A DNA stretch of 63,900 nt from Gemmatimonadota bacterium (GTDB taxonomy: Bacteria; Gemmatimonadota; Gemmatimonadetes; Gemmatimonadales; Gemmatimonadaceae), in contig BJHH01000007.1 in the NCBI GenBank assembly GCA_014192065.1, positions 1-63,900 on the forward strand, in the 5' to 3' direction. The translations under genes were made by a program, and so were the position numbers. This document shows positions 10,552 to 29,278 of this stretch, piece after piece. Within the stretch, counting starts at the first letter, position 1. Every line of letters begins with the position of its first letter. Under the pieces are notes generated by a model. It did not search any database. It had not been told where the DNA came from and saw only the letters and a program-made list of their open reading frames with translations.

Positions 10552-10642
10552 CGGAGACGGAGGGATTCGAACCCTCGATACAGGTATAAGCCCGTATAAC
10601 GGTTTAGCAAACCGCCGCCTTCAGCCTCTCGGCCACGTCTCC
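10552..10642 (-). tRNA. tRNA-Ser(GCU)
   Basis: 91 nt read on the minus strand. The acceptor GGAGACG pairs with CGTCTCC, followed by discriminator G. The anticodon stem-loop GCGGT-TTGCTAA-ACCGT gives anticodon GCT. A long class II variable arm lies between the anticodon and T arms, and the T arm is GAGGG-TTCGAAT-CCCTC. Its 5' half (positions 1-37) is the sequence that recurs at about 15.68 kb and 29.25 kb, so it appears to be an integration target. Confidence 0.95.
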
Positions 10643-10693
10643 CATGTTGTGCTGCAAGCACTTCGCTACTGCGCCAGCCCCGCTTCAACCCGC

Positions 10694-10737
10694 TTGTTTG
10701 CCGCTTGTTTGCCGCTTGTTTGCCGCTTGTTTGCCGT
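10694..10737 (+). repeat. 11-bp tandem repeat (4 units) in integrase tail, copy 1
   Basis: Four copies of ttgtttgccgc, the last ending in t, encode the Lys/Gln/Ala-rich tail of the integrase remnant. The second remnant at 15.7 kb has five copies. Confidence 0.9.
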
Positions 10738-10853
10738 TGACTTGGCGGTGACGGTCCACTGAGGCGACAGCTTCGTTCAGGTCTTCTTGATTCGCGATGT
10801 TGTAGCGGTCAAACATAACACGAGTCTTCCATCCGCACAGCCTCATGAGTCGG
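10738..10853. repeat. 116-bp direct repeat A (partner at 15752-15867)
   Basis: This segment of the integrase remnant is repeated 5,014 bases downstream with a single mismatch that I could find. With the adjoining 11-bp repeats and the 20-bp tRNA match, it brackets the first SusC/SusD pair. Confidence 0.93.
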
Positions 10854-11016
10854 CCCTCGCTGACACCCGCCTCGACAAACTCGCGGGCAGCGGTGCGGCG
10901 GAGGTCATGCACTAGTCGGACAGGAGCCGGGACGGGCATGGCGCTTCGCGAACTTGAGTCGTAATGTTTTGCCAGCGGTGTAGGTCCTTTCCCAACTCCC
11001 AAGCATAGAGACCGTC

Positions 11017-14000
11017 ATGCCTAGGCGTGTGTCGTTGCGACTATTGGCGCTGCTAGGCGCCTTGTTCCTCGCTTTCCCGGCAGCCAATGCTGCGGCTGCC
11101 GCCGCCACTGGTACGGTGAGAGGCCGGGTCACCGACGCCGAAGACGGCTCGCCCATCGGCTCCGCGCAGGTGTCCATCGTCGGCACGCGGCTCGTGGCGC
11201 TCACGAATACCAACGGCGACTACGTATTGCCGGGCGTGACAAGCGGTCCCGTGACGGTCCGCATCGTGCGCATCGGCTACCAGCCGGCGACGCAGGCCGC
11301 AGTGGTTCCCGACGGAGGGACCGTCGTCGCGAACTTTAGCGCGACCCGCTCAGTGACCCGCCTCGAAGAGGTCGTCACGACGGCCACCGGAGACCTGGCG
11401 CGTCGCGAGGTCGGGAATGTCATGGCAACATTGTCCGCAGACAAGCTGACCAAGGAGGCACCCGTGACGAACGTCAACGAGATTCTCCAGTCGCGCATCC
11501 CCGGGGTGCTAGTAGTCCAGGGTTCCGGGCAGGTCGGCGCGTCGTCGTCCATCCGCATTCGCGGCACGAGTTCGCTGTCGCTCAGCAATGAGCCGATCGT
11601 GATTGTCGACGGCATCCGCTACGACAACAACGCCATCACCGCGAACACCACAACGCAGCGCGTCAACGCGTTCAGCGACTTCAACCCCGAGGACATCGAG
11701 ACGATCGACGTCATCAAGGGTCCCTCGGCGGCAGCGCTCTACGGCACCGCGGCCGCGAACGGCGTCATCGTCATCAAGACTAAGCGCGGCACCCAGGGCA
11801 AGACGCAGTGGCGCCTGTTCACCGAACGGGGCCAGATCTCGCAGCCGTCGAAGTTCGAGGACAACTGGCAGAGCTGGGGGCGCAACGTCGTGAACGGCGC
11901 GCCGACCGGCGCCGCGATCCAGTGCAAGGTGGTCAACCTCTCGCTCGGCCGTTGCGTGCAGGACAGCCTGTCGAGGAACAATCCGTACACCAACCCGCTG
12001 ACCAATCCGTACAAGACGGGCGAGGCCCGAACCGCGGGCGTCTCCGCCGGTGGCGGAAACGATCTCCTCCGGTACTTCGTGTCGCTCACACGGCAGAACG
12101 AGGTGGGCCCATACCAGATGCCTGACACGGACGTGAAGCGCATCACCGCCGAACGCGGTACCCCGCCAACCGGCATCCAGATCCGTCCGAACCAGCTGCA
12201 GCAGACGTCGCTGCGCGGCAACTTCTCGTTCGCGCTGGCGTCAAAGGCTACGGTAGACGTGAACGTCGGGTACATCGACCGCAACCTGCACACGCCGTTC
12301 GACGGCGGCTTTTTCGCCGGAATGACGTTCCAGCTGATGACGGCGCCTGGGTACACGTACAACCGCACGCTCGGGACGCAGCGCGAGTTCGTCGGTGACA
12401 TCTTCTCGATCGAACAGCGGCTGAGCGAACAGCGGTGGACCGGGAGCACCACGTTCAACTGGAACCCGCTCGATTGGCTTAAGGTGCACTCGGTCATCGG
12501 GATTGACCAGAACCATCAGTACAACTATCGCATGCAGAAGAACGGCGAGGGCACCAGCGTCGGTGTCGCATGGGGCCCGATCGGCCGTGAGGGCGGCAAG
12601 GACGCCGACCGCATCAATCTGAACAAGACATCCTTCAACGCCAGCGCGACGGCGACGAGTAACCTGACCAACGTGATCACGTCGAAAACCACGCTGGGTG
12701 TGCAGTGGTTCAAGGACCAGACGTACGACACCTTCGTTGAAGGGTACGGGCTCCTCCCTGGCGCTACGTCGCCAAACGCCGCCGGCCGGATCCGGATCTC
12801 GTCCGAGTTCACCACGGAGAACGCCACGGAAGGCGTCTTTCTCGAAGAGCAGCTCGCGTGGCGCGACCGGCTTTTCGGAACATTCGGCGTGCGCCAGGAC
12901 AAGAACAGCGCGTTCGGCCGATCGGTCGGCAACACCCAGTACCCGCGGGCATCGCTGTCGTACCTGATCTCGGACGAGAAGTGGTTCCCGGCGATCAAGT
13001 ACGTCGACCGCCTCCGCCTCCGCACCGCGTGGGGCAAGGCCGGCGTCCAGCCCACCACGATCGCCGCCCTGCAGTTCCTGTCGGGGGCGACCTTCCCGAT
13101 CGGCGGTTCCGAGGTCCCTGGTTTGCGCCTGAGCAGCATCGGCAATCCCGGCCTGAAGCCCGAGGTCACGACCGAGACCGAAATCGGCGCCGACTTCGCG
13201 CTCCTGAAGGAGCGCATCAACGTCGAACTCACGTATTTCAACAAGCAGAGCCACGACGCGCTCTTCGCGCGCCCTCTACCACCGTCGTATGGTGCCGGCG
13301 GATCGCAGTTCCAGAACCTCGCCTCCGTCGAGAATACGGGAGTGGAAGTCTCCGTTGACGGCCAGGTGATCGACCGTCCGTACTTCAACTGGAACGTTCG
13401 GGTCGGCGGGTCGCACCTCAAGAACACGCTCAAGGACGCGGGCACCGTGCCGCTGGCGGTCACGCCGGGCAACCGCCAGGTCGTCGGGTATCCGCTCAAT
13501 GGGCTCTGGGATCGCAAGATCATTTCCTATACGGACGCGAACGGCGACGGCAAGATCACGGAGAACGAGGTTGTGCTCTCCGATACGGCGCTGTTCAAGG
13601 GATCGACGCTCCCGGAGTGGGAGGCCGGCGTCACGAACACGTTCGGCTTCCTGAAGAACACGGTGCACATCACCGCGCAGTTCGACTACCGCGGTGGGTT
13701 CTTCAACCAGTGGGGCTACGAGAGCCAGCGGTGCGTGTCTACCGGCAACTGTCGTGCGGTCAACGATCCGACGGCGCCGCTCGAGGCGCAGGCACGCTCG
13801 GTCATGGGTGCCAGCTCCGCAAACAAGACGATCTGGGGCTTCTTCGTCCCGAACGATTTTGTCCGCTTCCGGGAACTCAGCGTCACCTACGACTTCTCGA
13901 AGAACCTCACGCAGAAGTACCTCCGTTCGAAGGGCGCGTCGCTCTCGCTGAGCGGGCGCAACCTGGGCGTGCTCTGGACCAAGTACCCTGGGCTCGACCC

Positions 14001-14103
14001 TGAAGCGAACAGCTCAGTCGCCAACACGGGCGGCGGTAACAACGACTTCTATTCGCCGCCGGTGCTGCGGACCTACCAGGTGCGGTTGAATGTCGCGTTC
14101 TAA
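11017..14103 (+). CDS. SusC/RagA-type TonB-dependent outer-membrane transporter (pair 1)
   Basis: 1028 residues. A signal peptide (LLALLGALFLAFPAANAAA) is followed by a carboxypeptidase-regulatory-like domain (about 30-115, GTVRGRVTDAEDGSPIGSAQV). A plug domain (about 120-250) has the SusC signatures LQSRIPGVLVVQGSG, SIRIRGTSSL and PEDIETIDVIKGPSAAALYG. The remainder is a 22-strand-type barrel with a C-terminal strand ending in F (TYQVRLNVAF). An EF-hand-like loop DANGDGKITENE sits around residue 845. It should import a ligand captured by the SusD partner that starts just after its stop, using TonB energy. The substrate is unknown; linked hydrolases hint at peptides. It lies inside the tRNA-Ser island, flanked by integrase remnants. 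Confidence 0.95.
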   Translation: MPRRVSLRLLALLGALFLAFPAANAAAAAATGTVRGRVTDAEDGSPIGSAQVSIVGTRLVALTNTNGDYVLPGVTSGPVTVRIVRIGYQPATQAAVVPDGGTVVANFSATRSVTRLEEVVTTATGDLARREVGNVMATLSADKLTKEAPVTNVNEILQSRIPGVLVVQGSGQVGASSSIRIRGTSSLSLSNEPIVIVDGIRYDNNAITANTTTQRVNAFSDFNPEDIETIDVIKGPSAAALYGTAAANGVIVIKTKRGTQGKTQWRLFTERGQISQPSKFEDNWQSWGRNVVNGAPTGAAIQCKVVNLSLGRCVQDSLSRNNPYTNPLTNPYKTGEARTAGVSAGGGNDLLRYFVSLTRQNEVGPYQMPDTDVKRITAERGTPPTGIQIRPNQLQQTSLRGNFSFALASKATVDVNVGYIDRNLHTPFDGGFFAGMTFQLMTAPGYTYNRTLGTQREFVGDIFSIEQRLSEQRWTGSTTFNWNPLDWLKVHSVIGIDQNHQYNYRMQKNGEGTSVGVAWGPIGREGGKDADRINLNKTSFNASATATSNLTNVITSKTTLGVQWFKDQTYDTFVEGYGLLPGATSPNAAGRIRISSEFTTENATEGVFLEEQLAWRDRLFGTFGVRQDKNSAFGRSVGNTQYPRASLSYLISDEKWFPAIKYVDRLRLRTAWGKAGVQPTTIAALQFLSGATFPIGGSEVPGLRLSSIGNPGLKPEVTTETEIGADFALLKERINVELTYFNKQSHDALFARPLPPSYGAGGSQFQNLASVENTGVEVSVDGQVIDRPYFNWNVRVGGSHLKNTLKDAGTVPLAVTPGNRQVVGYPLNGLWDRKIISYTDANGDGKITENEVVLSDTALFKGSTLPEWEAGVTNTFGFLKNTVHITAQFDYRGGFFNQWGYESQRCVSTGNCRAVNDPTAPLEAQARSVMGASSANKTIWGFFVPNDFVRFRELSVTYDFSKNLTQKYLRSKGASLSLSGRNLGVLWTKYPGLDPEANSSVANTGGGNNDFYSPPVLRTYQVRLNVAF

Positions 14104-14143
14104 CATGACCAACGGTTTTCTCCCATTCGGAGCTCGACGGACG

Positions 14144-15520
14144 ATGACTTCCATTCAGACCAAGGCGCGCACGCGCCGCGTGGGGCCGTGGGCGTGGCAG
14201 GTTGCCGCTGCCCTGGTGCTCACTGCGTGCGACGCTAGTTCGCTGTTGGACGTGAACACGCCGGATCAGATTACGCCGGCCGCCGCGGCCAGTCCCGCGG
14301 GCGCGGCTGCCATACGCGCGGCTGCGATCGGCAACTTCGCCAACTTTTTCGCCGGTGATCCCTCCGGCGGCTCGCCGGTCGGCATGAACATGTACAGCGG
14401 GATATTCTCCGACGAGATCATCTCGTCGCGCGGTGGAACCGAGCACCTCGACCAGCGCGCCCAGAACGACAACCTGTTCCCGTCGACGTCGTGGAACGTG
14501 GTAGGCACCGCGAGTACGCAGATCATTCGTGCAATCAAGGCGCTCAATACGTACGTCGCCGCCAGCGCGTCGCGGAACATGCAGGTCGGCGAACTGTATG
14601 GAAAAAGGGGGTTCCTGATGGCCATCACCGCAGAGATATTCTGCAACGGCGTCCCGATTGCCAATGCCGATGATGCCAATCCGGTCACGGAGACCCTCAA
14701 CAACGTTGACCTCTACACTCGCTCGCTTGCTCAGTTCGACTCGGCGCTCGCCGTTCTGTCGCCGACGGCCGCCGGCGACCTGACGTACCGTTACATGGTC
14801 CGCGTCGGCAAGGCGCGCGCCCTGATGAACCTCAACAAGTACCCCCAGGCGGTCGCTGTCCTTGGAGCGGGCGGAGACGGCAGCGGGAGCGCCGCCATCC
14901 CGAGCTCGTTCGTGTTTAACGTCGAGTACGGCACGGTGTCGATCGTCAACACCATGTACGACTGGATGGTCGCCACGCCGAACTTCGGGGCGGCCGACAA
15001 GGAGGGAGGCAACGGACTCGACTTCGTGACCTCCGGCGATCCGCGGGTCAAGGCCGCCAAGACAACGGTGGCGGGTCAGGACGGGACGCGCATCTTCACC
15101 TCGCTGATGTACCCGCTGCCCACGTCACCCGTCCCGCTCGCTACCGGAACCGAGGCCCGGCTGATCGAGGCCGAGGCCCTCCTTGCCGCAGGCGACGGCA
15201 CGGGTTGGCTCAACGGGCTCAACGCCCTACGCGCGGCCTTCACGGGAGCTCCCGCGCTTGCGCCGTTGGCCGACCCTGGTAACAAAGACGCCCGCGTCGA
15301 CCTGATGTTCCGCGAGCGCGCGTTCTGGTTGTACATGACGGCCCATCGCGTCGGCGACCTGCGCCGGCTCAGCCGCCAGTACGGACGCACGGCAGCGACG
15401 ATTTGGCCGACGGGCGCCTACTTCAAGGGGGGCGTATACGGCACGGACGTGGCCCTCAAGCCGTCGCAAGCCGAGCAGAACAACGGCGCTTGGAAGGCGT
15501 GCACGGACCGGAATCCGTAG
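14144..15520 (+). CDS. SusD/RagB-type surface lipoprotein (pair 1)
   Basis: About 458 residues from the ATG at 14144, which gives a compact lipoprotein signal ending in the lipobox LTAC. In-frame ATGs at 14105 and 14090 are possible. The mature protein has the helical TPR-like fold of SusD-type binding proteins, with a typical C-terminal piece (VDLMFRERAFWLYMTAHRVGDLRRLSRQYGR). It would cap the SusC channel and bind the nutrient at the cell surface. A strong hairpin follows the stop. Confidence 0.9.
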   Translation: MTSIQTKARTRRVGPWAWQVAAALVLTACDASSLLDVNTPDQITPAAAASPAGAAAIRAAAIGNFANFFAGDPSGGSPVGMNMYSGIFSDEIISSRGGTEHLDQRAQNDNLFPSTSWNVVGTASTQIIRAIKALNTYVAASASRNMQVGELYGKRGFLMAITAEIFCNGVPIANADDANPVTETLNNVDLYTRSLAQFDSALAVLSPTAAGDLTYRYMVRVGKARALMNLNKYPQAVAVLGAGGDGSGSAAIPSSFVFNVEYGTVSIVNTMYDWMVATPNFGAADKEGGNGLDFVTSGDPRVKAAKTTVAGQDGTRIFTSLMYPLPTSPVPLATGTEARLIEAEALLAAGDGTGWLNGLNALRAAFTGAPALAPLADPGNKDARVDLMFRERAFWLYMTAHRVGDLRRLSRQYGRTAATIWPTGAYFKGGVYGTDVALKPSQAEQNNGAWKACTDRNP

Positions 15521-15550
15521 GCGGGATCGGCGGCATCGCAGCTTTCACAC

Positions 15551-15585
15551 GGAGGGGCCGGTTCGCGTTGCGAGCCGGCCCCTCC
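15551..15585 (+). terminator. Hairpin terminator after SusD (pair 1)
   Basis: An arm of 15 bases (ggaggggccggttcg) pairs with cgagccggcccctcc across a five-base loop, with one G-U pair. It lies 30 bases after the SusD stop. The following sequence (gtgctttct) has only a weak T run, so efficiency is uncertain. Confidence 0.7.
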
Positions 15586-15676
15586 GTGCTTTCTGCATGG
15601 CGCCGTGCCCGTGCGTTCGTGGGGTTGATGCCGGACTATAAAGTTGGCTCTTCGTAGTGCGGCATCTTTGAGGTCC

Positions 15677-15696
15677 AGCAAACCGCCGCCTTCAGC
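15677..15696 (-). other. att-like fragment of tRNA-Ser(GCU), internal copy
   Basis: agcaaaccgccgccttcagc is identical to 10606-10625, the D-arm-to-anticodon-loop part of tRNA-Ser(GCU). It is joined directly to the 11-bp repeats of the second integrase remnant. The tRNA 5' end and the spacer present in copy 1 are missing, consistent with a deletion. Confidence 0.85.
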
Positions 15697-15751
15697 TTGT
15701 TTGCCGCTTGTTTGCCGCTTGTTTGCCGCTTGTTTGCCGCTTGTTTGCCGT
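15697..15751 (+). repeat. 11-bp tandem repeat (5 units) in integrase tail, copy 2
   Basis: Five copies of ttgtttgccgc, the last ending in t, compared with four in copy 1. The copy-number difference suggests slippage since duplication. Confidence 0.9.
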
Positions 15752-15867
15752 TGACTTGGCGGTGACGGTCCACTGAGGCGACAGCTTCGTTCAGGTCTTC
15801 TTGATTCGTGATGTTGTAGCGGTCAAACATAACACGAGTCTTCCATCCGCACAGCCTCATGAGTCGG
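15752..15867. repeat. 116-bp direct repeat A (partner at 10738-10853)
   Basis: Second copy of the integrase-derived direct repeat; one difference seen (gattcgt instead of gattcgc). Same orientation as copy 1. Confidence 0.93.
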
Positions 15868-16077: not shown

Positions 16078-18012
16078 ATGCTTCGACCTATTCGGCTTCT
16101 CGCGTTGGCGGCGCTCTTCGATGGGGCGCTGCTGGCTGGCGCCCCGCTCACACTGTTTGCCCAAGCTGCTCCCGCGCCCGATGCGTCGCGGATGCCTCCA
16201 GTCGGGTGGGTCGGATCGCCGAAGCAATACGATGCACTGAAGGTCTCGACCGACCTGATGATCCCCACACGTGATGGCAAGCGCATGGCGACCGATGTGT
16301 ACCGGCCGGCTCGCTATGGCGTGCCCGTGACGCAGCCACTGCCGGTGTTGTTGAATCGCACGCCGTACAACAAAGCGGCGCTCGCCGAACTAGCCGTGTG
16401 GTACGCCGAGCGGGGCTACGTGGTGGCGTTGCAGGACACGCGCGGTCGCTACAAGTCTGAAGGCACGTTCTCCAAGGTGCAGCCCGCCGACGCCACCGAT
16501 GGGTACGACGTCATCGAATGGCTCGCCAAGCAGCCCTACGCCAACGGCGTGGTCGGCATGTGGGGCACGTCGTTCTCGGCCCACACCGAGGCCGGCGCCG
16601 CGCAGTACAACCCGCCATCGCTCAAGTCGATGGTGCTCAACATGGGTGGCCTCGCCAATGGTTGGGATCACGGTGTGCGCTATCGCGGCACGTATGAAAT
16701 GGGGCGTCAGCTCACCTGGGCGTGGAGCCAGTTGCTGGCCGACGCGCGCTCGCCCGATGTGCAGGCGCTGCTCACCAAGGAAAAGGTCGAGGACTGGTAC
16801 AGCGTGCAGCCCATGCGGCGCGGCCTCAATCCACTCTCGGTAAACCCGCAGTATGAAGGGTGGTACTTCGACTTCTTCGAGCACGCCGACTACGACGCGT
16901 TCTGGAAGGACCCCATGCTGGCGTGGGATGAACACTACGGGGAAACGTCCGATATCCCCATGATGCACGTGGGCGGATGGTATGACATTTTCACCGCCGG
17001 CACGTTCAAAAATTTTACCGAGTTGCGCAAACTCAAGAAGACGCCGCAGCGCATCGTCGTCGGTCCGTGGACACATGGCGGTAACAATCGCAGCTTCGCG
17101 GGCGACGTAGCCTATGGCGACAGTGCTGCCATCCCCGATTTCCTCACCGACTTCCATCTGCGCTGGTTCGACCATCACCTGAAAGGCGTAGCGAATGGCA
17201 TCGAGAAGGACTCGGCGGTTCGCCTGTTCGTGATGGGTACGGGAGATGGTCGCAAAGACGCCAATGGGCGCCTGCAGCACGGCGGCTACTGGCGTACGAG
17301 CAACGCCTGGCCAGTCACGAACACGCGCATGGTGCCGTACTACTTCCAGGCCGACGGCTCGCTGCGCGCCACGAAGCCGAAGGCGCTGCACTCGAAAACC
17401 ACATATACCTTCGATCCGCGCCATCCGGTGCCGACGGTCGGTGGCGGGTCGTCCGCGCGCCTTAAAGACGGTGCGTACGATCAGCGTGAAGACCCGCGCT
17501 TCCCACCTTCCCAAGCACCTTGGCTGCCGCTGCGCTCCCGCGCCGACGTGGTCGTTTTCCAGACGGAGCCCCTCACCGCGGACATGACGGTCATCGGCCC
17601 GATCACCGTCACGCTCTTCGCCTCCGTCACCACGGTAGACGCGGACTTCACCGCGAAGCTGGTTGACGTCTATCCCTCGAGCACCGACTGGCCCGGCGGT
17701 TTTGATCTCAATCTCACCGACGCCATCGTGCGTGGACGCTATCGCGCCACCCGCGATCATGCCGTGATGCTGCAGCCCGGACGCGTGTACGAGTTCACGA
17801 TTGATCCTTTCCCCACGGCGAACGTGTTCAAGAAGGGGCATCGTATTCGTGTCGACATCTCCAGCAGCAACTTCCCGCGCTTCGACGTGAATCCGAATAC
17901 GGGGGAACCACTGGGAAAGAATCGCCGCCTGGTCACGACCGACATCTCGATTCAGCACAGTGCGACCTATCCGTCGCACATCGTACTGCCGCTCGCGCCC
18001 GCGCGTCCGTAA
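16078..18012 (+). CDS. Secreted CocE/NonD (X-Pro dipeptidyl-peptidase-like) hydrolase
   Basis: 644 residues with a signal peptide (LLALAALFDGALLAGAPLTLFAQ). The alpha/beta-hydrolase part begins at TDLMIPTRDGKRMATDVYRP. The nucleophile motif is WGTSFS, Ser165 being the likely catalytic Ser. The catalytic His is likely in VVGPWTHGGNN. The C-terminal half is the jelly-roll X-Pro-C domain typical of S15/CocE enzymes (DVVVFQTEPLTADMTVIGPI, RGRYRA, FKKGHRIRVDISSSNFPRFDVNPNTG). It cleaves acyl or peptidyl bonds outside the cytoplasm; the exact substrate is unknown. The CitMHS-type transporter starts seven bases after its stop, so the two are likely one operon. Confidence 0.93.
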   Translation: MLRPIRLLALAALFDGALLAGAPLTLFAQAAPAPDASRMPPVGWVGSPKQYDALKVSTDLMIPTRDGKRMATDVYRPARYGVPVTQPLPVLLNRTPYNKAALAELAVWYAERGYVVALQDTRGRYKSEGTFSKVQPADATDGYDVIEWLAKQPYANGVVGMWGTSFSAHTEAGAAQYNPPSLKSMVLNMGGLANGWDHGVRYRGTYEMGRQLTWAWSQLLADARSPDVQALLTKEKVEDWYSVQPMRRGLNPLSVNPQYEGWYFDFFEHADYDAFWKDPMLAWDEHYGETSDIPMMHVGGWYDIFTAGTFKNFTELRKLKKTPQRIVVGPWTHGGNNRSFAGDVAYGDSAAIPDFLTDFHLRWFDHHLKGVANGIEKDSAVRLFVMGTGDGRKDANGRLQHGGYWRTSNAWPVTNTRMVPYYFQADGSLRATKPKALHSKTTYTFDPRHPVPTVGGGSSARLKDGAYDQREDPRFPPSQAPWLPLRSRADVVVFQTEPLTADMTVIGPITVTLFASVTTVDADFTAKLVDVYPSSTDWPGGFDLNLTDAIVRGRYRATRDHAVMLQPGRVYEFTIDPFPTANVFKKGHRIRVDISSSNFPRFDVNPNTGEPLGKNRRLVTTDISIQHSATYPSHIVLPLAPARP

Positions 18013-18019
18013 CGCAGCG

Positions 18020-19342
18020 ATGTTGCTCACCCTCCTCGCCTACGGCATGGTTCTCGTGTTCATGACGCTGATCATGACCAAGAAGCTCTCCCCGCTCACG
18101 GCGCTGATTCTCGTGCCGGTGGCCTTTGGCATCGCGGGTGGGTTCGCCCTGCAGCTCGGGGAGATGATGGTCGCCGGCATCACCAAGCTGGCCCCCACCG
18201 GCGTGATGCTGATGTTCGCCATTTTGTATTTCGCGATCATGCTTGACGCCGGCCTGTTCGAGCCGTTCGTGCAGCGATTGATCGCATGGGTGCACGGCGA
18301 CCCGATGAAAGTTGTCGTCGGCTCGGCGGTGTTGGCGCTGCTCGTTTCACTTGACGGCGACGGCTCTACGACCTACATGATCACCATCGCCGCCATGTTG
18401 CCGCTGTTTCGGCGACTCGGTATGCGACCGCTTGTACTGGCCTGCGTCACGATGCTCGCGTCCGGGGTCATGAATACGCTGCCGTGGGGCGGACCGACCG
18501 CGCGCGCAGCGAGCGCGCTCTCGATCGACGTGAGCACGGTGTTCGTGCCCATGATCCCCGCCCTCGTTGTCGGCGTCTGCTGGGTGTTGTATGTGTCGTA
18601 TCGGCTTGGGCTTGGCGAACGCCGCCGGCTCGCCGCGGTGGGTGCGTTGTCTCCGGCCAACGAACAGGTATTGCGCGAGGAGCTCGCCAATCCTGAGCTG
18701 CGGGACGACACGCGGCACCGACGTCCCCGCCGGCTTTTCGTGAATGCGGCGCTCACCGTGGCCTTGCTCGCGGCGCTCGTCGCCGCCGTGCTGCCGTTGC
18801 CGGTACTCTTCATGATCGGCTTCGCCGTCGCGATGCTGCTCAACTACCCGACGATCGACGAGCAGAAGGCGTTGTTGTCGCGACATGCGGGGAATGTGCT
18901 GGCCGTGGTCGGCCTCATTTTCGCGGCCGGCATCTTCACCGGCATTCTCTCCGGCACGAAGATGGTCGACGCCATGGCCGAGAGCGTGATCCAGTTGGTG
19001 CCGCCGGTGCTCGGCCCCTATCTCGCGATCGTGACCGGTGTGCTCAGTATTCCGTTCACGTTCTTCATTTCCAACGACGCGTTCTACTTCGGTGTGCTCC
19101 CGATTCTTGCGCGAGCGGGCGAGGCGTACGGGATCACGGCCGCCGAGATGGCCCGCGCGTCGTTGATCGGGCAGCCCGTGCACCTCCTGAGCCCGCTCGT
19201 GCCGTCCACCTTCCTCCTGGTCGGACTGGTGGGTGTCGATTTCGACGACCATCAACGCTATACGCTCAAGTGGGCGCTGGCGTCGGCTGCGGTGCTGCTC
19301 CTGGCGGGGCTCGTGACGCTCGTGATTCCGCTACGCGGGTAG
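18020..19342 (+). CDS. Citrate transporter-like (CitMHS) membrane protein
   Basis: 440 residues, nearly all hydrophobic, with about 11-12 membrane segments. The ATG at 18020 gives MLLTLLAYGMVLVFMTLIMTKKLSPLTALI, the usual CitMHS N-terminus. Conserved stretches include SLDGDGSTTYMITIAAMLPLF, MNTLPWGGPTARAASAL and FTFFISNDAFYFGVLPIL. The family takes up citrate or similar carboxylates with metal ions or cations. Placement behind a secreted hydrolase suggests import of a released acid. Substrate unproven. Confidence 0.93.
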   Translation: MLLTLLAYGMVLVFMTLIMTKKLSPLTALILVPVAFGIAGGFALQLGEMMVAGITKLAPTGVMLMFAILYFAIMLDAGLFEPFVQRLIAWVHGDPMKVVVGSAVLALLVSLDGDGSTTYMITIAAMLPLFRRLGMRPLVLACVTMLASGVMNTLPWGGPTARAASALSIDVSTVFVPMIPALVVGVCWVLYVSYRLGLGERRRLAAVGALSPANEQVLREELANPELRDDTRHRRPRRLFVNAALTVALLAALVAAVLPLPVLFMIGFAVAMLLNYPTIDEQKALLSRHAGNVLAVVGLIFAAGIFTGILSGTKMVDAMAESVIQLVPPVLGPYLAIVTGVLSIPFTFFISNDAFYFGVLPILARAGEAYGITAAEMARASLIGQPVHLLSPLVPSTFLLVGLVGVDFDDHQRYTLKWALASAAVLLLAGLVTLVIPLRG

Positions 19343-19579
19343 CCGCTGCGGGGGTAGCCGCTGCGGCTGCTGCTGTGCTTGCGGAGGGCATTGCCTCTGC
19401 CGATAATCGTCGCAACCGCCGGGCAGGTCGGCCAGAGTTACGAGGCGCAATCGCTGACGCCCACTGAAGCTCATTTTCTGTGAGCACTACGTGCGTGGAC
19501 ATTCCCGCCGCGCTATCATTACTCGCGGGACTCCGCCCGACTCATGAAGTGCACCTTCTGACTCTTTATACCTTTTCCA

Positions 19580-19919: not shown

Positions 19920-20020
19920 ACGGGGCACTGTCTTCCTCAGCGCACATCAGCCCGGGATGATCCTGCGCACACTCGTGAAATGGGACGGCCGGGTACGGCG
20001 TTGAGGCGCCATCAACTGCC

Positions 20021-20737: not shown

Positions 20738-20800
20738 CGCAAGCCTTGCCTTCGGCTGCCGCGGATGACGACACCCGCCTTGCGCGGCGCTGCTGATGGA

Positions 20801-21175
20801 TCAGACGACGAGCGCGCCCCCGGAAATACCAATACAGAGCACGAGCATACCGAGCGCGGGCAGCGATTTCCGCAACGGATCGCGGACTCTGACGTGCATC
20901 GCCAGCGCCCCGAGCATCAGAACGCAGATCAGCGCAGCCGCCGGGAATATCACCGCCGGCAACCAGATGCCCGCGATCAATGCCAGTGCCGATCCCACCT
21001 TGAGTGTCCCGATGGCGTAGGCGAACCATGCCGGCAGTCCGTATGCGGCGAACTCCTCCAGCATCGAGGCGGCGTTGGCTCCCCGATACGCCGTGGGTCG
21101 ATCAAATCGCAGCAGCCACACATTCAGTAGTCCAAGCGCCGCTACGACCTGCAGGATGACCATGACCGTTCTCAT
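20801..21175 (-). CDS. DoxX-like membrane protein A
   Basis: 124 residues, four hydrophobic segments starting MRTVMVILQVVAALGLLNVWLLRF, with the DoxX-like VRVRDPLRKSLPALGML near the end. It diverges from the related gene at 21244, so the 68-base gap between them must hold both promoters. DoxX-like proteins act in membrane redox or quinone-linked processes, but this subgroup (DoxX-like, about 115-125 residues) has no assigned reaction. Confidence 0.8.
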   Translation of the reverse strand: MRTVMVILQVVAALGLLNVWLLRFDRPTAYRGANAASMLEEFAAYGLPAWFAYAIGTLKVGSALALIAGIWLPAVIFPAAALICVLMLGALAMHVRVRDPLRKSLPALGMLVLCIGISGGALVV

Positions 21176-21243
21176 ATCCGCTCCAGTGTGTGACACGTAA
21201 TGTCGCGCCCTGCGGGGGTGAAGACTACTAAGATAAGGATACA

Positions 21244-21591
21244 ATGCAACTCGCCGCAGCCCTTGCGCAGGCCCTCTCGATCGTCGCGTTTGCCGGGTAC
21301 GGCGCGAGCGCGTTGGTGACCGACCGCATGGCAGCGGAATTCCAGCGCTTCGGTCTCGCCCATTTACGAGTGCTGACCGGCACCCTGCAAATCGTGGGAA
21401 GCGTGGCCCTTTTCGTCGGTTACTTCTTCCGTCCACTTCTCTTGCTGTCGGCCGGCGGCTTCGCAGCGATGATGGTGATTGGACTGGTCGTACGAGTGAG
21501 GATCCGGGATCCGTTTGTCGAGATGATCCCGGCGTTCACTCTCATGTGCCTTAATCTGTTTGTAGCCTTATCCGCGTCATCGCGAGGGTGA
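21244..21591 (+). CDS. DoxX-like membrane protein B
   Basis: 115 residues with four membrane segments (MQLAAALAQALSIVAFAGYGASALV to FTLMCLNLFVALS) and VRVRIRDPFVEMIPAF, which parallels VRVRDPLRKSLPA of the divergent neighbour. The two look like distant paralogues. A tRNA 3' fragment begins seven bases after its stop. Confidence 0.8.
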   Translation: MQLAAALAQALSIVAFAGYGASALVTDRMAAEFQRFGLAHLRVLTGTLQIVGSVALFVGYFFRPLLLLSAGGFAAMMVIGLVVRVRIRDPFVEMIPAFTLMCLNLFVALSASSRG

Positions 21592-21597
21592 GCGCAC

Positions 21598-21629
21598 CGG
21601 GGTCGTGGGTTCAAATCCCGCAGTCCCGA
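21598..21629 (+). other. 3' fragment of a tRNA gene (tRNA-Pro-like), possible att remnant
   Basis: The sequence has a complete T arm (gtggg-ttcaaat-cccgc), the 3' acceptor strand agtcccg, and A at the discriminator place. No 5' half is present upstream. C1-G72-type acceptors ending tcccg-A are typical of tRNA-Pro, but the identity is inferred. Such 3' ends are common leftovers of integrase attachment sites. Confidence 0.65.
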
Positions 21630-22103: not shown

Positions 22104-23354
22104 TTACGGCTTAAAGTTCGGGTTGTTGTCGAGTTCCGTCCGCGGTACTGGGTAGCAGGTCTGCGAACCCACGGACCCGAAGCCAGTGCGCCAGTACGGC
22201 GTGCCGGTCACCGCGACCCGGTTCGCCGCCGCGACGGGATGGCGGCGCCAGTCGCCCATGCGCTTGCCTTCGATCCAGAAATCTAGGGCTTTCTGGTTGA
22301 AGAGTTCGTACAGGACGCTGGCCGCATCCGTGGCGCCGGCGTACACCGCCTGACCAGCTGCGACGCGCTGTCGATTGATCAGGGTGAGCTGCTGTGTGGC
22401 GTCGGTCGATGCCTCGGCCACGATGTAATCCGCCTCGAGCTTCGATGCGAGTCGGATCGGCGAGGCATAAGTCTGAAACTTCTGCTGCACGACGAACGGC
22501 CCGGCTGCTTGGTCGACCGCAACGAACTTGTGCTGCGACGGGAGCAGGAAAGTGATGCGCGGGTCGGTGGTCTGGTAATACGGCGGGACGCTGACGGTGC
22601 CCCGATCCACCGTGAACCGCCAATACGCGTTGGACAGGCGACCGCGATTGGCGAGATCGTCGGTATAGGTGAGGTTGTAGGTGAACCCGGCCGGAACGGC
22701 GTTTGCGTCCGCAAGCGCACCGGACTTGTCGCCCTTCTGCAGCTTGGCGCGGGCGCGTCCGACCAGTGCCGCGCGGGCCAGCGCCAGTCCGTCAGCCGAG
22801 CCGTTGGCGGTACCGACATCGACCGCCTTGCCAAACCAGAAGATGGCCGAGTCGAGAAGCTGGACCGTGGTCAGTTGCGGCCCCGACGATAGGGTTCCGC
22901 TGCAGAAATCAAGGGCGATGTAGAGGATGCTGTACGCCCGGTACGTTGCGCCGCGCGCCAGGTTGATATTGGTGGTCGGGTTGGGGAGCGCAAGGTCGAG
23001 CAGGATCTTCCCCGACGACGCGGCCAGCTGGAGGCCCGACCAGCGGCCGGCGAGCGTGCCGTTGTCGACTGACACTTCACGCTTGCCGAACTCGTTCTGG
23101 CTCGAGCTCGTCTCGATGATGTACGTCTCGCCAGTAAAATGTGACTCGAACATGGCGGTGGCGCCGAACTCCGTTGCAAAGTTCTGCTGCACCGTTGCCG
23201 CCAAGTCGCCCGCGGTGGCCGCCGGGTTGACCGTGATCGCATCGATCAGGTTCGGGTTGGTGACGTTTAGGAACTTGTCGGTGCAGGCGAGCGTGCCTAG
23301 GACGAGCGCGCCGCCGATCATGGTGCGCGAGACCGCGCGTTGGATCGTCATCAT
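22104..23354 (-). CDS. SusD/RagB-type surface lipoprotein (pair 2)
   Basis: 416 residues from the ATG at 23354, preceded by a good ribosome-binding site (gagagga). The lipoprotein signal ends LGTLAC. The body is SusD-like and ends with the family's LFNQKALDFWIEGKRMGDWRRHP segment and CYPVPRTELDNNP. It lies 20 bases after its SusC partner on the minus strand. Expected to bind a nutrient at the surface; substrate not predictable. Confidence 0.92.
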   Translation of the reverse strand: MMTIQRAVSRTMIGGALVLGTLACTDKFLNVTNPNLIDAITVNPAATAGDLAATVQQNFATEFGATAMFESHFTGETYIIETSSSQNEFGKREVSVDNGTLAGRWSGLQLAASSGKILLDLALPNPTTNINLARGATYRAYSILYIALDFCSGTLSSGPQLTTVQLLDSAIFWFGKAVDVGTANGSADGLALARAALVGRARAKLQKGDKSGALADANAVPAGFTYNLTYTDDLANRGRLSNAYWRFTVDRGTVSVPPYYQTTDPRITFLLPSQHKFVAVDQAAGPFVVQQKFQTYASPIRLASKLEADYIVAEASTDATQQLTLINRQRVAAGQAVYAGATDAASVLYELFNQKALDFWIEGKRMGDWRRHPVAAANRVAVTGTPYWRTGFGSVGSQTCYPVPRTELDNNPNFKP

Positions 23355-23374
23355 GATAGTGGTCCTCTCGCCTG

Positions 23375-26300
23375 TTAGAAGGTGATGTTCACGCGAAGCA
23401 GCGACCGCTTCGGTGTTGGTAGCGTGAAGAAATCCGCACGCGAGAAGTTGCCGCTGTCGGTCACGACCTCGGGATCGGGTCCCTCGTACTTGGTCCAGAG
23501 CTTGAGGTTCTGCATCGCGAACTGGATGGACGCACTCTGCACGGTATTGCGCAGCGAGGAAAGGAAACGCTTGGGCACGTTGTACGAGATTGAGAGCTCG
23601 CGGAAGCGCACGAAATCGCCCGGCTGTTCCCACGCCTCGTAGACGTCGTTCTGGGTGGCCACGCTACCGGTGACCGTCACGAACGCAGGCTTGCCTGGAG
23701 TGTCGTTACCGTACCTGCGGAGCCGCTCGCGGCGCGAGAGCTTGTTGGGATCGAGCCGGTTCTGCCCGCGCACGAGCTGGGTCTCACGGTAGAAGTCCGT
23801 GAAATTGTCCGTGATGAAGTCCCGCTTCGAGTCGACCAGAGCCGTGACCCTGAAGTCCCGCATGATGGTGAAGCTGTTCGAGACGTTCCACTCGAGCGTC
23901 GGGTAGAGATTGCCTACCGGTGACACCGTGTCGGCGACGACGACGAGTCCGGTCGCCTCGTCGATCGACTTGATCCGCTTGGACACGTACACCCCCAACT
24001 GCTGGCCGAGCATGGCGCGCGTATGGCTGAAGCTGCCGCCGGGAGCAAAGGCCGCCACGCCGCCTAGGCTCGTCAGTTCGTTGTGCAGCGTGTTAATGCC
24101 GGCGCGAATGTCCCATTCGAAGTTGTTCATCTGGACGGCCGCGACCGTCAGGCCGAGTTCCACGCCGCTGTTGACGACCGAGCCGATATTCCGCAGCGGG
24201 TTGCTGTTGAAGCCGAGCGACGGGGCGATGGGCTTGGCGATGATCAGGTCTTTGGTCTGCTTGTTGTAGTAGGTGAGCTCGGCCGATACGCGATCCTTCC
24301 AGAAGCTCGCGTCGAGGCCCGCCTCGTACTCCGTGCCCCGCTCCGGCTTGAGGTCGGCGTTGCCCGGGTTCCCCGGGTTGGCGCCATTGAGGGTGGCACC
24401 GGTGATGTTGTATGGCGAAGCCACGAGCGTCGTAAGCGCAGCGCCCGGTGCCGGCGAACGGCCGGTCGTGCCCCATGAGGTCCGGACGCGAAGCGAGCTG
24501 AAGTACCTCGTCCACTTGGCGAGCGACGGTTCGTCCGAGAGGGTCCAGGTCGCGCCCACCTTCGGGAGCACGAAGGCCGGAGCCGCGGCGCCGAACGCAG
24601 AGTTCTTGTCGACGCGCACGGCCATCTGGATGAACATCCGGTTGAGGTAGCCGATCTGCAGCTGACTTAGGTACCCAAACTGCTTCTGTTCGGTGAATAG
24701 GCCCCCACCGGTGTTCGTCGCGGCGGAACTGACCGAGTTGTTCGCGTTCGTGACGAACCCGACGCCCGAGCTGAGAGTGTTGGTGTTTCGAGTCGATACC
24801 ACTTGAAGGCCAAAGGAGAGGTTGCCCTCCCACTGCTTCTGCGCGCCAAGCGTGCGGCGGATGTTGCCAAGGTAGTCCACGGTGTATCGCTCGGCCGTGC
24901 GCGCCTGGCGGCTCACCCGGCCCAGGTCGGTCTGGCCTCCATACCACGCGCTGTCGTTCTTGGGGTTGAACTCGCCCTGCTCGTCCATCGCGAAATCGAC
25001 GCCAATGGTGAACTTGTTGGTTAACCATGGGGTCGGCATGTAGTTGGCGGCCATGGACATCGTCACGCGGTGCGTCAGCAGCTGGTTGTCGATGGCTGCG
25101 ATCGCGTTGTAATGACGATTGTACCCGAACCAGCTGTCCGCGCTGTTCTCCGGCTTGTCGGAGCGGGTCAGCGGCGAGCCCAGAAGCGCGCCGGCGATCC
25201 ACCCATACAGCGAGTTGTCCAGGTTGGGCAGCCGCGTTCGGTTTTGAGCGAGGCCGAGGCCAAGGTCGATCGTCAGCCGCGAATCCGGGACGTAGTTGAA
25301 GTTGGAGCGGATGTTGTACTTGTCCAGGTTGCTGTTGGGCAACGTGCCGAGTGCGCCTTGGGTTCCAAACGACAGATTGTAGCCGTAGTTCTGGCCGCCG
25401 CCGCGCCCATTCCACGTCGTTGAGAAGTCCCGGCCCGTGCGGAGGACGTTGTACCGCACCCAAACGTTGTCGTGGACGAGCGCTCCGACCGCCTGGCCGC
25501 GGCAAAGCGGATTGGTGCTCGCTGGGGCGACGAGGGCCGCGGAGCAAGTGCCGTAACTGTCTGCTGGCAGGTAGTTCTGGTCGGTCGAACCGACCTCGAA
25601 CTTCACCGTCTGCACGAACTGGTTGGCGCCGGGGCGACCCTTCTTGGTGATGATCTGGATCACGCCCGCCGAGGCGTCGGCGCCGTACAGCGTGGCGGCG
25701 GCTGGCCCTTTCACCACCTCGATGCTCTCGATCTCATCCGGGTTCAGGTCATTCATGCGGTCGTAGGACTGGCCGCTCACATTTCCGTTGATCGCCCCCT
25801 CGATGACCCGCACGCCGTCGACGAAGAGCAGCGGTTGGTTGGAGAGGTAGACCGACGAGGCGCCTCGGATGCGAATCGTCTTGGATGTACCGAGGACGCC
25901 CGAGTTTGCGCTGATCGCGACGCCCGGTATGCGCGACTGCAGCAAGGCGCCGACGCTCGTCACCGGAGCATCCTTCAGGATCTCCGAGACCGCGAGCGAC
26001 GCGACCTGCGCGGACTGGGCCCTCCGCTCCTGATTGCCCACCGTCCCGGTGACGACGACTTCCGACAGTGTCGCCGCCGTCGCAGTCATCGCGACGTTGA
26101 ACGTAATCGTCTGTCCAGCCGCCACCCTGAGCGTGTCGCCGGCGGCCTTGAAGCCAAGGCGAAAAACCGCCACGGTCACGCGTCCTGGTCGGATGTTCGT
26201 CAAGCGATACTCGCCGACGCCGCTGGTGATCGTCGCGAGGGCGGTGCCTCCGATAGTCACCCGGGCATCGGCGATCGGAGCGCCATTGGCGCCGTCGGTG

Positions 26301-26422
26301 ACCTTGCCGGTGATTATTCCGGTCTGGGCGACGAGTGCTGCCGGGATCGCCATTAGCAACCCTACAAGAGCTGGCAGACAGGCAAGGGAACGCGCACGAG
26401 CCAACGCGGATGTATCCGTCAT
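23375..26422 (-). CDS. SusC/RagA-type TonB-dependent outer-membrane transporter (pair 2)
   Basis: 1015 residues. Signal peptide (LACLPALVGLLMAIPAALVAQ), regulatory-like domain (GIITGKVTDGANGAPIADARV), plug with LLQSRIPGVAISANSG, TIRIRGASSVYLSN and PDEIESIEVVKGPAAATLYGADASAGVIQIITKKG, then the barrel ending LLRVNITF. An AGGCAGGA ribosome-binding site precedes the ATG. Same domain plan as pair 1 but clearly divergent in sequence, so not a recent duplicate. It faces away from the S9 peptidase gene, with the decayed hydrolase between. Confidence 0.95.
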   Translation of the reverse strand: MTDTSALARARSLACLPALVGLLMAIPAALVAQTGIITGKVTDGANGAPIADARVTIGGTALATITSGVGEYRLTNIRPGRVTVAVFRLGFKAAGDTLRVAAGQTITFNVAMTATAATLSEVVVTGTVGNQERRAQSAQVASLAVSEILKDAPVTSVGALLQSRIPGVAISANSGVLGTSKTIRIRGASSVYLSNQPLLFVDGVRVIEGAINGNVSGQSYDRMNDLNPDEIESIEVVKGPAAATLYGADASAGVIQIITKKGRPGANQFVQTVKFEVGSTDQNYLPADSYGTCSAALVAPASTNPLCRGQAVGALVHDNVWVRYNVLRTGRDFSTTWNGRGGGQNYGYNLSFGTQGALGTLPNSNLDKYNIRSNFNYVPDSRLTIDLGLGLAQNRTRLPNLDNSLYGWIAGALLGSPLTRSDKPENSADSWFGYNRHYNAIAAIDNQLLTHRVTMSMAANYMPTPWLTNKFTIGVDFAMDEQGEFNPKNDSAWYGGQTDLGRVSRQARTAERYTVDYLGNIRRTLGAQKQWEGNLSFGLQVVSTRNTNTLSSGVGFVTNANNSVSSAATNTGGGLFTEQKQFGYLSQLQIGYLNRMFIQMAVRVDKNSAFGAAAPAFVLPKVGATWTLSDEPSLAKWTRYFSSLRVRTSWGTTGRSPAPGAALTTLVASPYNITGATLNGANPGNPGNADLKPERGTEYEAGLDASFWKDRVSAELTYYNKQTKDLIIAKPIAPSLGFNSNPLRNIGSVVNSGVELGLTVAAVQMNNFEWDIRAGINTLHNELTSLGGVAAFAPGGSFSHTRAMLGQQLGVYVSKRIKSIDEATGLVVVADTVSPVGNLYPTLEWNVSNSFTIMRDFRVTALVDSKRDFITDNFTDFYRETQLVRGQNRLDPNKLSRRERLRRYGNDTPGKPAFVTVTGSVATQNDVYEAWEQPGDFVRFRELSISYNVPKRFLSSLRNTVQSASIQFAMQNLKLWTKYEGPDPEVVTDSGNFSRADFFTLPTPKRSLLRVNITF

Positions 26423-26915: not shown

Positions 26916-27003
26916 GCAAGCTAAGACCGGCGTTTTCAACCTGGCGTGGCGTGGCTGGGCGCACGCGCGAGTTGACCTAGACACCCGGTGACCCGTACAA
27001 TCT

Positions 27004-27020
27004 TAGTACTGTTCGTACTA
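27004..27020. promoter_or_regulatory. Inverted repeat upstream of S9 peptidase (candidate operator)
   Basis: tagtac-N5-gtacta forms a perfect 6-bp palindrome arm pair, ending 23 bases before the ATG at 27044. Its position near the expected promoter or start site suggests a repressor site. The binding protein is unknown. Confidence 0.4.
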
Positions 27021-27043
27021 GCCCCAAGACCTCCGGGATAAAA

Positions 27044-29128
27044 ATGCGATCCACGATCCGCGCGTCGCTCGTGCTCGGCGCCCTCAGCACGGCCATCGTA
27101 TTGGTCGCGATCAACCCCGCGCCACTGCGTGCCCAGGCCACCCGCCTCACGCCGGCCGACGTCTTTCGCTTCGAGTTCGCCGCCGACGCGCAGGTGTCGC
27201 CGGACGGCCAGTGGATCGCCTACGTTCGGCAATCGGCCGACCAGATGACCGATCGCCGGTATTCGAATGTCTGGATCATGAAGACCGACGGCTCCGATCA
27301 TCGGCCGGTCACGACGGGCAAGTTCAGCGAGGATACTCCGCGCTGGTCGCCCGATGGCAAGCGGCTCGCCTACATCTCCAACAGGAATGGCAGCCCGCAG
27401 GTGTACGTCCGGTGGATGGACAACGGCACGACCGTCCAGGCTACGAACGTGACGAATTCTCCGAGCGCCGTCGCTTGGTCGCCGGACGGGACGCGGATCG
27501 CGTTCCTGAAGCTGGTGCCGAAACCGGCGCTGGTGATTGGCGAGCCGATCACCCCGCCATCTGGAGCCACATGGGCGGCCCCACCAAAGGTGACTGACAA
27601 GCTGGTGTTCCGGTACGACGGCGTCGGCGAACTGCCGAGCGGATATGTGCATGTGTTCGTGGTTCCGTCTGACGGCGGCACGGAGCGCCAGATCAGTAGC
27701 GGCGACTTCCACGACGGGGGCGGCGTCTTCGGCGGCGGCGCACTCACTTGGACCGCCGATGGCGCGGAACTGGTGTTACCGGCCCGTCGAGGTGAACGGC
27801 CCGAATGGAACGCGCGTGAAACCGACCTCTACGCGTTCGCCGTCAAGGACGGCACCGCCCGGCGGCTCACAAGCCGATTCGGTCCCGACGAGAGTCCCGC
27901 AGTGTCGCCCGATGGCAAGCTCATCGCATTCGTCGGCTACGACGACCGGAAGCTCGGCTACCAGAACAACGTCCTTTATACCATGAACCGGGACGGCTCC
28001 GAAAAACGGGCCATTTCGTCGAAGCTCGACCGGAGCGTTGCTCGGCCGACGTGGGCCGCCGACGGCAAGGGGATTTATGCCTCCTACGACGACCAGGGAA
28101 ACACCAAGCTCGCGTTATTCGCGCTGGACGGTTCGCATCGCATCGTCGCCGGTAACCTTGGCGGTGGCGGCTCGGCGTCCGGCGGGGGAAGCTTCAGTGT
28201 CGCCAAGGACGGCACAATCGCGTTCACGACTAGCACACCGAGCCTGCCGTCGGAAATCGCCGTGCTTCGGCCCGGGCCGGCCGCGCAGCCCCGCATCCTC
28301 ACAGCGCTTAACGCAGGGCTCCTCGCCGGCAGGACACTTGGCCATGTGGAGGAGATCTGGTACCCGTCCTCCAAGGACCAGCGGAAGATCCAGGGGTGGC
28401 TCATCAGGCCCCCGGGATTCGATCCCGCCCAGAAGTATCCAATGATCCTCGAAATGCATGGCGGACCGTTCAGCAACTACGGTGATCGGTTCGACGTGGA
28501 AAAGCAGCTGATGGCTGCGCTCGGTTACGTCGTGCTCTACACCAACCCGCGGGGCAGCACCAGCTACGGCGAGGAATTCGCCGACCTGATCCACCACGCA
28601 TATCCAGGTGACGATTTCTTCGACCTCAATTCCGGGGTCGACGCGGCGATCGCCAAGGGATTCGTCGACGCCAACAACCTGTTCGTCACCGGCGGCAGCG
28701 GCGGTGGCGTCCTTACCGCGTGGATGATTGGCCACACCACACGCTTCAAGGCGGCACTCGCGTTCTATCCCGTGATCAACTGGGAGAGCTTCACGCTCAC
28801 CTCTGACATGGCGCCATCGGCGGTCAACAATTGGTTCCCCGGCTTCTCCTGGGACAACCCGGAGAATTACGCCAAGCGGTCGCTGCTGTCGGTGGTAAAG
28901 AACGTGAAGACGCCGACGCTGGTGATGGTGGGCGAGGAGGACTTCCGCACCCCCACGTCCGAGTCGGAGCAGTACTACAAGGCGCTCAAGATGCTGGGCG
29001 TCGACGCCGTCTTTGTCCGCGTCCCGGAGGAACCGCACGGGATTCGCCGGCGGCCGAGTCACGAGGCGGCCAAGCTGACGACGTTGGCGGGCTGGTTCGA
29101 GAAGTACCGCAGCCGCGCCACTCCCTGA
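27044..29128 (+). CDS. Exported S9-family (prolyl oligopeptidase-like) peptidase
   Basis: 694 residues with a signal peptide (LVLGALSTAIVLVAINPAPLRAQ). Residues 35-410 form a WD40/TolB-like beta propeller (repeated SPDGxxIA motifs). The catalytic alpha/beta domain has GGSGGG with Ser552, Asp in GEEDFRTP, and His in EEPHGI. Such enzymes remove acyl-amino acids or dipeptides from oligopeptides. It is the last gene of the island segment before the tRNA-Ser 5' fragment, next to a SusC/SusD pair, which supports peptide use. Confidence 0.95.
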   Translation: MRSTIRASLVLGALSTAIVLVAINPAPLRAQATRLTPADVFRFEFAADAQVSPDGQWIAYVRQSADQMTDRRYSNVWIMKTDGSDHRPVTTGKFSEDTPRWSPDGKRLAYISNRNGSPQVYVRWMDNGTTVQATNVTNSPSAVAWSPDGTRIAFLKLVPKPALVIGEPITPPSGATWAAPPKVTDKLVFRYDGVGELPSGYVHVFVVPSDGGTERQISSGDFHDGGGVFGGGALTWTADGAELVLPARRGERPEWNARETDLYAFAVKDGTARRLTSRFGPDESPAVSPDGKLIAFVGYDDRKLGYQNNVLYTMNRDGSEKRAISSKLDRSVARPTWAADGKGIYASYDDQGNTKLALFALDGSHRIVAGNLGGGGSASGGGSFSVAKDGTIAFTTSTPSLPSEIAVLRPGPAAQPRILTALNAGLLAGRTLGHVEEIWYPSSKDQRKIQGWLIRPPGFDPAQKYPMILEMHGGPFSNYGDRFDVEKQLMAALGYVVLYTNPRGSTSYGEEFADLIHHAYPGDDFFDLNSGVDAAIAKGFVDANNLFVTGGSGGGVLTAWMIGHTTRFKAALAFYPVINWESFTLTSDMAPSAVNNWFPGFSWDNPENYAKRSLLSVVKNVKTPTLVMVGEEDFRTPTSESEQYYKALKMLGVDAVFVRVPEEPHGIRRRPSHEAAKLTTLAGWFEKYRSRATP

Positions 29129-29243
29129 GAATCCGCCATACCTCTGGTGACAGGCGTTCTGACGAAGTGCCTGGCAGTGAGTGCCGGCGCGCAGGGCACA
29201 ATTCCACGTCCGCGAGTCTTCGGGCCTGGGAATCGCCGGGGCC

Positions 29244-29278
29244 CAAGCCGCCGCCTTCAGCCTCTCGGCCACGTTTCC
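29244..29278 (-). other. Displaced 5' half of tRNA-Ser(GCU) (att-like end)
   Basis: 33 of 35 bases match the 5' half of tRNA-Ser(GCU) (10608-10642), including 27 identical in a row (29248-29274 against 10612-10638). The acceptor strand reads ggaaacg instead of ggagacg. No 3' half follows. This is what remains when an element inserting in the anticodon loop supplies a new 5' half to the tRNA. Confidence 0.85.

Follow-up and report, generated by a model that had tools for sequence, protein, structure and literature searches.

A split tRNA-Ser(GCU) gene in a Gemmatimonadota bacterium encloses what is probably a decayed mosaic island founded by a tyrosine-integrase element

Of the 3919 islands gathered in Islander, 3760 have a 3' fragment of the tRNA gene and 159 a 5' fragment, and 125 tandems are recorded (PMC4383910). 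According to a review, it is rare in bacteria for the recombinant tRNA to be expressed from the integrase side, a situation characteristic of the pTN3-like integrases of archaea (PMC8371274). Additive islands, anchored at a tRNA gene and carrying serial 20-bp tRNA repeats and nutrient cargo, have been described in Methylophilaceae (PMC10872708), as have tycheposons, originally in Prochlorococcus. The locus considered here is a split tRNA-Ser(GCU) gene that encloses 18.6 kb of genes for nutrient uptake and peptidases. It lies within a stretch of 63,900 nt (the window), positions 1-63,900, forward strand, of contig BJHH01000007.1 (assembly GCA_014192065.1), from a Gemmatimonadota bacterium of the Gemmatimonadaceae. 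The island is of a known kind, a tRNA island of the minority 5'-fragment class, and a decayed member of it, the founding mobile element being now dead. Judging by its sequence, the segment is quite probably a genomic island of mosaic make-up, with a tyrosine-integrase element at tRNA-Ser(GCU) as its founder.

The split gene and its flanks are laid out as follows.

9073-10512, minus strand: gltX, core flank (PF00749, E=3e-96), adjoining tRNA-Ser(GCU) in nearly all relatives examined
10552-10642, minus strand: tRNA-Ser(GCU), restored and intact (ARAGORN), single copy in this genome
15678-15697, minus strand: second copy of the tRNA core, 20 bp exact, 5' half deleted
29244-29278, minus strand: displaced original 5' half of tRNA-Ser(GCU), a 33/35 match (94%) with two mutations, anticodon-loop part lost
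29279-29367, minus strand: orphaned native promoter (upstream) region of tRNA-Ser(GCU), lying between the displaced half and tRNA-Ser(UGA), as placed in empty sites
29368-29453, minus strand: tRNA-Ser(UGA), core flank (ARAGORN)
29532-31853, minus strand: TMEM260-like/DUF2723 gene, core flank
32007-33539, minus strand: purH, core flank

The restored tRNA gene is a composite, its 3' part native and its 5' part (about 10602-10642) derived from the element. A repeat search found the tRNA copies at 10608-10642, 15679-15713 and 29244-29278 (94%), and the core at 15.68 kb extends leftward into the anticodon-loop part with 2 mismatches. I will refer to the genome of the window as G000 and to two congeners as G004 and G008; in the latter (contig L013) the displaced half is present as an unmutated 35/35 copy. 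The 35-mer of the tRNA-Ser 5' half, with no more than 2 mismatches allowed, was searched for in 179 genomes of the family, with the reversed pattern as a control. Its matches lie at tRNA-Ser loci, an extra displaced copy occurs (one each) only in G000, G004 and G008, and the control found nothing in the same genomes. In G055 and G164 the match is a tRNA copy lying at a contig end or close to one; the former, entertained as a displaced copy, was dropped for that reason. A displaced half of lower identity is found in another genus (G024, L015:5653-5691); the contig that bears it also begins in a SusD-like fragment. By the measure used in Islander, then, an intact tRNA is accompanied by a displaced fragment of the same tRNA on the correct side and in the correct orientation.

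The order of the empty site in relatives is gltX-tRNA-Ser(GCU)-tRNA-Ser(UGA)-TMEM260-purH. In four relatives (G003, G001, G011 and G015) gltX is followed by the two tRNA genes, separated by tens of bases to about 110 bp; TMEM260 and purH come next in three of them, and the contig of G001 ends before that point. The uninterrupted site that Islander looks for in island-free relatives is thus present (L016, L017, L019, L021). With the island removed in silico, the two tRNA-Ser genes stand 89 bp apart, as compared to about 38-200 bp in empty relatives. A previous reading of the window, made from its sequence only, had expected that relatives without the island would have a continuous tRNA-Ser(GCU) joined to tRNA-Ser(UGA), and so they do; the parts it had listed (intact tRNA with adjoining integrase remnant, second core with its own remnant, displaced half and core flanks) are all in place. 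Base composition was considered as a mark of the island, but GC content of 62-65% within it, against 65-68% in the flanks, is not diagnostic.

What is left of the founding element is found at two places.

10643-10689, minus strand: element-derived tRNA leader (AGTAGCGAAGTGCTTGCAGCACA...), counterpart of the TAGCTAAGT leaders in G004, G008 and tRNA-Arg elements
10685-10735, minus strand: four 11-bp units (CGGCAAACAAG) in the 3' end of integrase relic 1, the paired motif recurring in the window only at copy 2
10690-10923, minus strand: integrase relic 1, C-terminal part only (PF00589, E=9e-4, below gathering)
15626-15666, no strand assigned: hairpin (z=-3.1) of a distal element end, with CTCTTCRTAGTGCGGC common to the distal end of G004
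15698-15867, minus strand: integrase relic 2, with five 11-bp units, 99% identical to relic 1 over 164 nt

These two C-terminal relics are the whole integrase content of the interval. In the minus-strand frame near 10.7-10.9 kb one reads HDLRRTA...LCGWKTRVMFDRYNI (ending MFDRYNI), the C-terminal end of a tyrosine recombinase, which is cut at a homology edge at about 10923-10925. The repeated integrase tail occupies 10690-10853 and 15704-15867, the second copy standing directly behind the 20-bp core. At the same tRNA-Ser(GCU), the integrase end of G004 has 82% amino acid identity to the relics of the window; its frame contains one stop and is interrupted by a multi-copy repeat with 13 matches, nearly all at contig ends. 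The repeat that breaks the G004 assembly inside the integrase gene (L011:1-67, L014:1-68) is probably a multi-copy insertion sequence.

The nearest full-length relative, an integrase of 371 amino acids in G182, adjoins tRNA-Arg(CCU), and other close relatives adjoin the 5' end of tRNA-Arg, tRNA-Lys and tRNA-Met genes. Two tRNA-Lys elements have a displaced 5' half at the far end: that of G132, with a full-length integrase, has tRNA positions 1-51 (92%) 10.3 kb off, and that of G182, with an integrase fragment, has positions 1-42 (100%) 3.7 kb off. Among the more distant relatives some integrases face the 3' end of the tRNA. In a tree of 13 rows the 5'-type integrases fall into two well-supported groups, and the relic of the window, filling only 16% of the columns, is placed with G004-Ser and the Arg elements, its grouping with the G004 integrase having starred support. 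The marks of a 5'-half integrase family are all seen: the integrase 3' end next to the tRNA 5' end, paired arm repeats, and a displaced 5' half at the far end. Together with the displaced halves, the family bears out the proposal that an element entered the 5' half of tRNA-Ser(GCU) and supplied a new one, and the complete integrases with the same tail-repeat layout that had been suggested as worth seeking were found, full-length, beside other tRNAs.

Two of the relatives deserve description for their own sake. The tRNA-Lys(UUU) element of G132 (L092:572-10930) is intact, with a full-length integrase, an HTH gene, a Rep-like gene, an Eco57I-type methylase, a XamI-like endonuclease and a DndB-like gene. 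In G182 (L042:939-5147), the full-length integrase at tRNA-Arg(CCU) is accompanied by an HTH gene, an AAA_25-like gene and a primase-like open reading frame (ORF), making up a small integrative replicon. A phage origin was considered and set aside: peptide patterns of the closest full-length integrase found no match in viral contigs, its matches in phage and plasmid records are weak (about 24-31% identity in the rows listed), and the exact 20-mer of the arm repeat was absent from the viral contigs searched.

Upstream of the tRNA the order is a short leader, then a pair of direct repeats with an 11-bp period (GGCAAACAAGC / GGCACAATTCG) inside the integrase 3' end, then the integrase itself. An inverted copy of the pair is found at the far end of the G004 (Ser), G132 (Lys) and G182 (Lys) elements, 85-117 nt past the core, so that in these three it is present on both ends, where about 0.0002 would be expected per 260 nt. 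The pairs are probably arm-type sites of the integrase. Hairpins lie between the distal arm and the core (z from -3.1 to -4.3). In the window a hairpin is followed by the core at 15.63-15.70 kb, the order seen at distal element ends; this order and the CTCTTCRTAGTGCGGC common with G004 make the region of 15.6-15.9 kb resemble an attP site or a tandem junction from which the tRNA 5' half and leader have been deleted. The sequence GGGCACAATTC at 29.2 kb was considered as an arm site; it is single and in the opposite orientation, and was treated as a chance occurrence.

The leader usually carries CTAAGT 22-37 nt before the tRNA. It has been retained in G000, G004 and G008 despite an integrase that is truncated, interrupted or absent, which is consistent with selection for tRNA expression, if not proof of it. 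No consensus sigma-70 promoter was found upstream of the restored or the displaced tRNA. A leader of the CTAAGT type between the integrase stop and the tRNA is conserved across elements with different target tRNAs, and may act as a promoter, in processing or as a site for the integrase. In G008 (L012:8200-8334), the element leader preceding tRNA-Ser(GCU) is joined to a fragment like the start of an IS3-type transposase (MRKSKFSPEQILQAL).

The cargo consists of the following genes and modules.

10923-15593, plus strand: SusC1/SusD1 module, 93% nucleotide identity to L012 (G008) over 4675 bp
11017-14103, plus strand: SusC1 (TIGR04056)
14090-15520, plus strand: SusD1 (weak SusD, PF07980)
16078-18012, plus strand: CocE/NonD-type S15 hydrolase (TIGR00976)
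17960-19342, plus strand: CitMHS citrate:proton symporter (TIGR00784)
19453-21618, plus strand: SDR/DoxX-like module, 94% nucleotide identity to G008 and G165
20021-20737, plus strand: SDR, within that module
21244-21591, plus strand: DoxX-like, within that module
22104-23633, minus strand: SusD2, with SusC2 98-99% identical in nucleotides to a 3.8-kb contig of G013
23375-26422, minus strand: SusC2 (TIGR04056)
27044-29128, plus strand: S9 peptidase, Dpp5-like (PF00326, E=6e-48; NF053518 below cut-off)

As compared to G008, nucleotide identity is 93-94% for SusC1/SusD1 and 96-97% for SDR/DoxX (82-94% at four-fold sites), while the core genes gltX, TMEM260 and purH are 75-79% identical, with 48-51% at four-fold sites (synonymously saturated). 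Cargo so nearly identical between saturated flanks has been transferred horizontally, and these two modules have demonstrably moved between species; the surmise that SusC/SusD cargo is mobile thus stands. SDR/DoxX is equally close in G165, of another genus, where the module is found alone, away from the tRNA. The order in G008 is tRNA-SDR-DoxX-SusC1-SusD1, without an integrase, and the homology of G008 to the window begins at 10923, where relic 1 is cut, and stops at 15593. That order, and that edge, indicate that modules are exchanged independently of the integrase boundaries. The S9 peptidase has a 98.9% match on a contig end of G008, and SusC2/SusD2 its match on the small G013 contig, where mis-assembly or mis-binning is possible in both cases. 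The S15-CitMHS pair was not accepted as a recent transfer: its proteins are 92-93% identical to those of genus g25, but four-fold sites, at 52-57%, are near saturation. In G008, contigs L012 (1-96) and L013 (9768-10542) have the tRNA-Ser(UGA) region in common and then continue into two different island ends. One of these ends is 97.5% identical to the window, reflecting either strain polymorphism or a chimeric contig.

The enzymes beside the two SusC/SusD pairs are hydrolases of the S15 and S9 types, and the function of the cargo is presumably peptide or nutrient uptake. The carbohydrate-active enzyme families expected of a polysaccharide utilisation locus were not seen in the main ORFs scanned, nor were the relaxase and type IV secretion genes expected of an integrative and conjugative element seen among the main island ORFs scanned (small ORFs lay outside the scan). 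Elsewhere in the window, two tRNA-Met(CAU) genes stand in tandem, 67 bp apart (57072-57286).

The origin I favor would run as follows. Recombination of the founding element would have taken place in the anticodon stem-loop region of tRNA-Ser(GCU), a single-copy gene, and the integrase of the element, as the anatomy suggests, would have bound 11-bp arm sites arranged in pairs to either side of the attP core. Through integration the chromosomal 3' part of the tRNA would have been retained and completed by a 5' half and leader from the element, from which tRNA-Ser(GCU) would now be transcribed; the native 5' half, along with its upstream region, would have ended up at 29.24 kb, the far end. The second element end and integrase tail at 15.6-15.9 kb would most simply be the junction of a tandem sibling pair. 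Both integrases would later have been truncated, and cargo exchanged at the hotspot (SusC1/SusD1, SDR/DoxX, and probably SusC2/SusD2 and S9), partly without this integrase.

Several observations weigh against this account. The island has no intact integrase, and its nearly identical integrase tails could stem from local duplication. The end at 29.24 kb lacks the arm pair, the hairpin and the anticodon-loop part of the core, and may therefore be secondarily altered. In several relatives the interval between the two tRNA-Ser genes is 1-15 kb, with neither integrase nor displaced half detected, so that the interval is also a general insertion hotspot, gaining genes by other routes.

A tandem of two elements, as the sequence-only reading proposed, is plausible if unproven: two cores, two integrase tails and an attP-like junction at 15.63-15.87 kb speak for it, and truncated integrases, near-identical tails and a middle core without its 5' half speak against. 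Its further claim, that each element brought its own SusC/SusD pair, fares worse. By such a scheme one element (10.6-15.7 kb) delivered SusC1/SusD1 and another (15.7-29.2 kb) S15-CitMHS-SDR-DoxX-SusC2/D2-S9, each by its integrase. Each segment does end in an integrase tail and tRNA core, and the junction has the attP order of hairpin, core and integrase, but I consider the scheme doubtful, since the SusC1/SusD1 module has its edge exactly at the integrase truncation, the congener joins it to SDR/DoxX without an integrase, G165 has SDR/DoxX off the tRNA altogether, and the 29.24-kb end is bare of arm and hairpin. It is unlikely that there was a single founder, the second core and tail arising by local duplication at a module insertion, before gene exchange. 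Both relics being broken yet 99% identical, and the middle site having neither tRNA 5' half nor leader, would suit that history; a copy of the tRNA-integrase junction, however, would not supply the distal-arm hairpin to the left of the middle site, homologous to the distal end of G004. Less probable still is that the genes came by homologous exchange across the conserved flanks of a hotspot between two tRNA-Ser genes, the integrase relics being incidental. The interval does vary across the family from about 30 bp to >20 kb, frequently with no integrase or displaced half detected, and in one contig of G008 the change to near-window sequence comes precisely at tRNA-Ser(UGA), but the displaced 5' half and element leader at the tRNA in G000, G004 and G008 would be left unexplained. 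Finally, chance tRNA-like matches in an ordinary gene cluster, which the sequence-only reading had named as what would overturn it, can be dismissed given the empty control and the synteny with empty sites.

The island provides a mapped case, with transfer between species quantified, of SusC/SusD nutrient-uptake genes moving in Gemmatimonadota via a tRNA hotspot, and it brings to light an integrase family whose polarity, towards the 5' half, is the rare one. An element inserted this way would itself have to supply the sequence from which an essential tRNA is transcribed, making dependence of the host on the element end testable. A broader idea, offered tentatively, is that integrases of this Gemmatimonadota family, as a matter of routine, replace the 5' half of a single-copy tRNA gene along with its promoter region (Ser-GCU, Arg-CCU, Lys-UUU, Met-CAU), the host then depending on the element end for an essential tRNA. 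If so, selection would preserve the leader and the tRNA 5' half even as integrase and cargo were replaced, the displaced native half would decay, locking in the hotspot, and the leader with its conserved CTAAGT would act as a promoter or as a signal for processing.

Compared with described systems, the island resembles those of Islander in its restored tRNA, same-orientation fragment on the expected side, integrase beside the tRNA and anticodon-type crossover; unlike most of them it displaces a 5' fragment, and its integrases are relics, which Islander's integrase filter might reject. As with the targets of pTN3-like integrases, transcription of the recombinant tRNA would have to come from sequence belonging to the element, but the element is bacterial and unrelated, and the att site does not divide its integrase gene. 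With additive flexible islands and tycheposons it has in common the tRNA anchor and nutrient-acquisition cargo, and with additive islands serial 20-bp tRNA repeats, although those repeats correspond to the final 20 bp, at the 3' end, of tRNA-Lys. It is also close to the small elements at tRNA-Arg in G182 and tRNA-Lys in G132, the same in integrase family, 5'-end attachment geometry and kind of arm repeat; those elements keep a full-length integrase and replication-type genes (Rep/primase, HTH), with XamI-like restriction-modification in G132, of which the island in the window keeps none.
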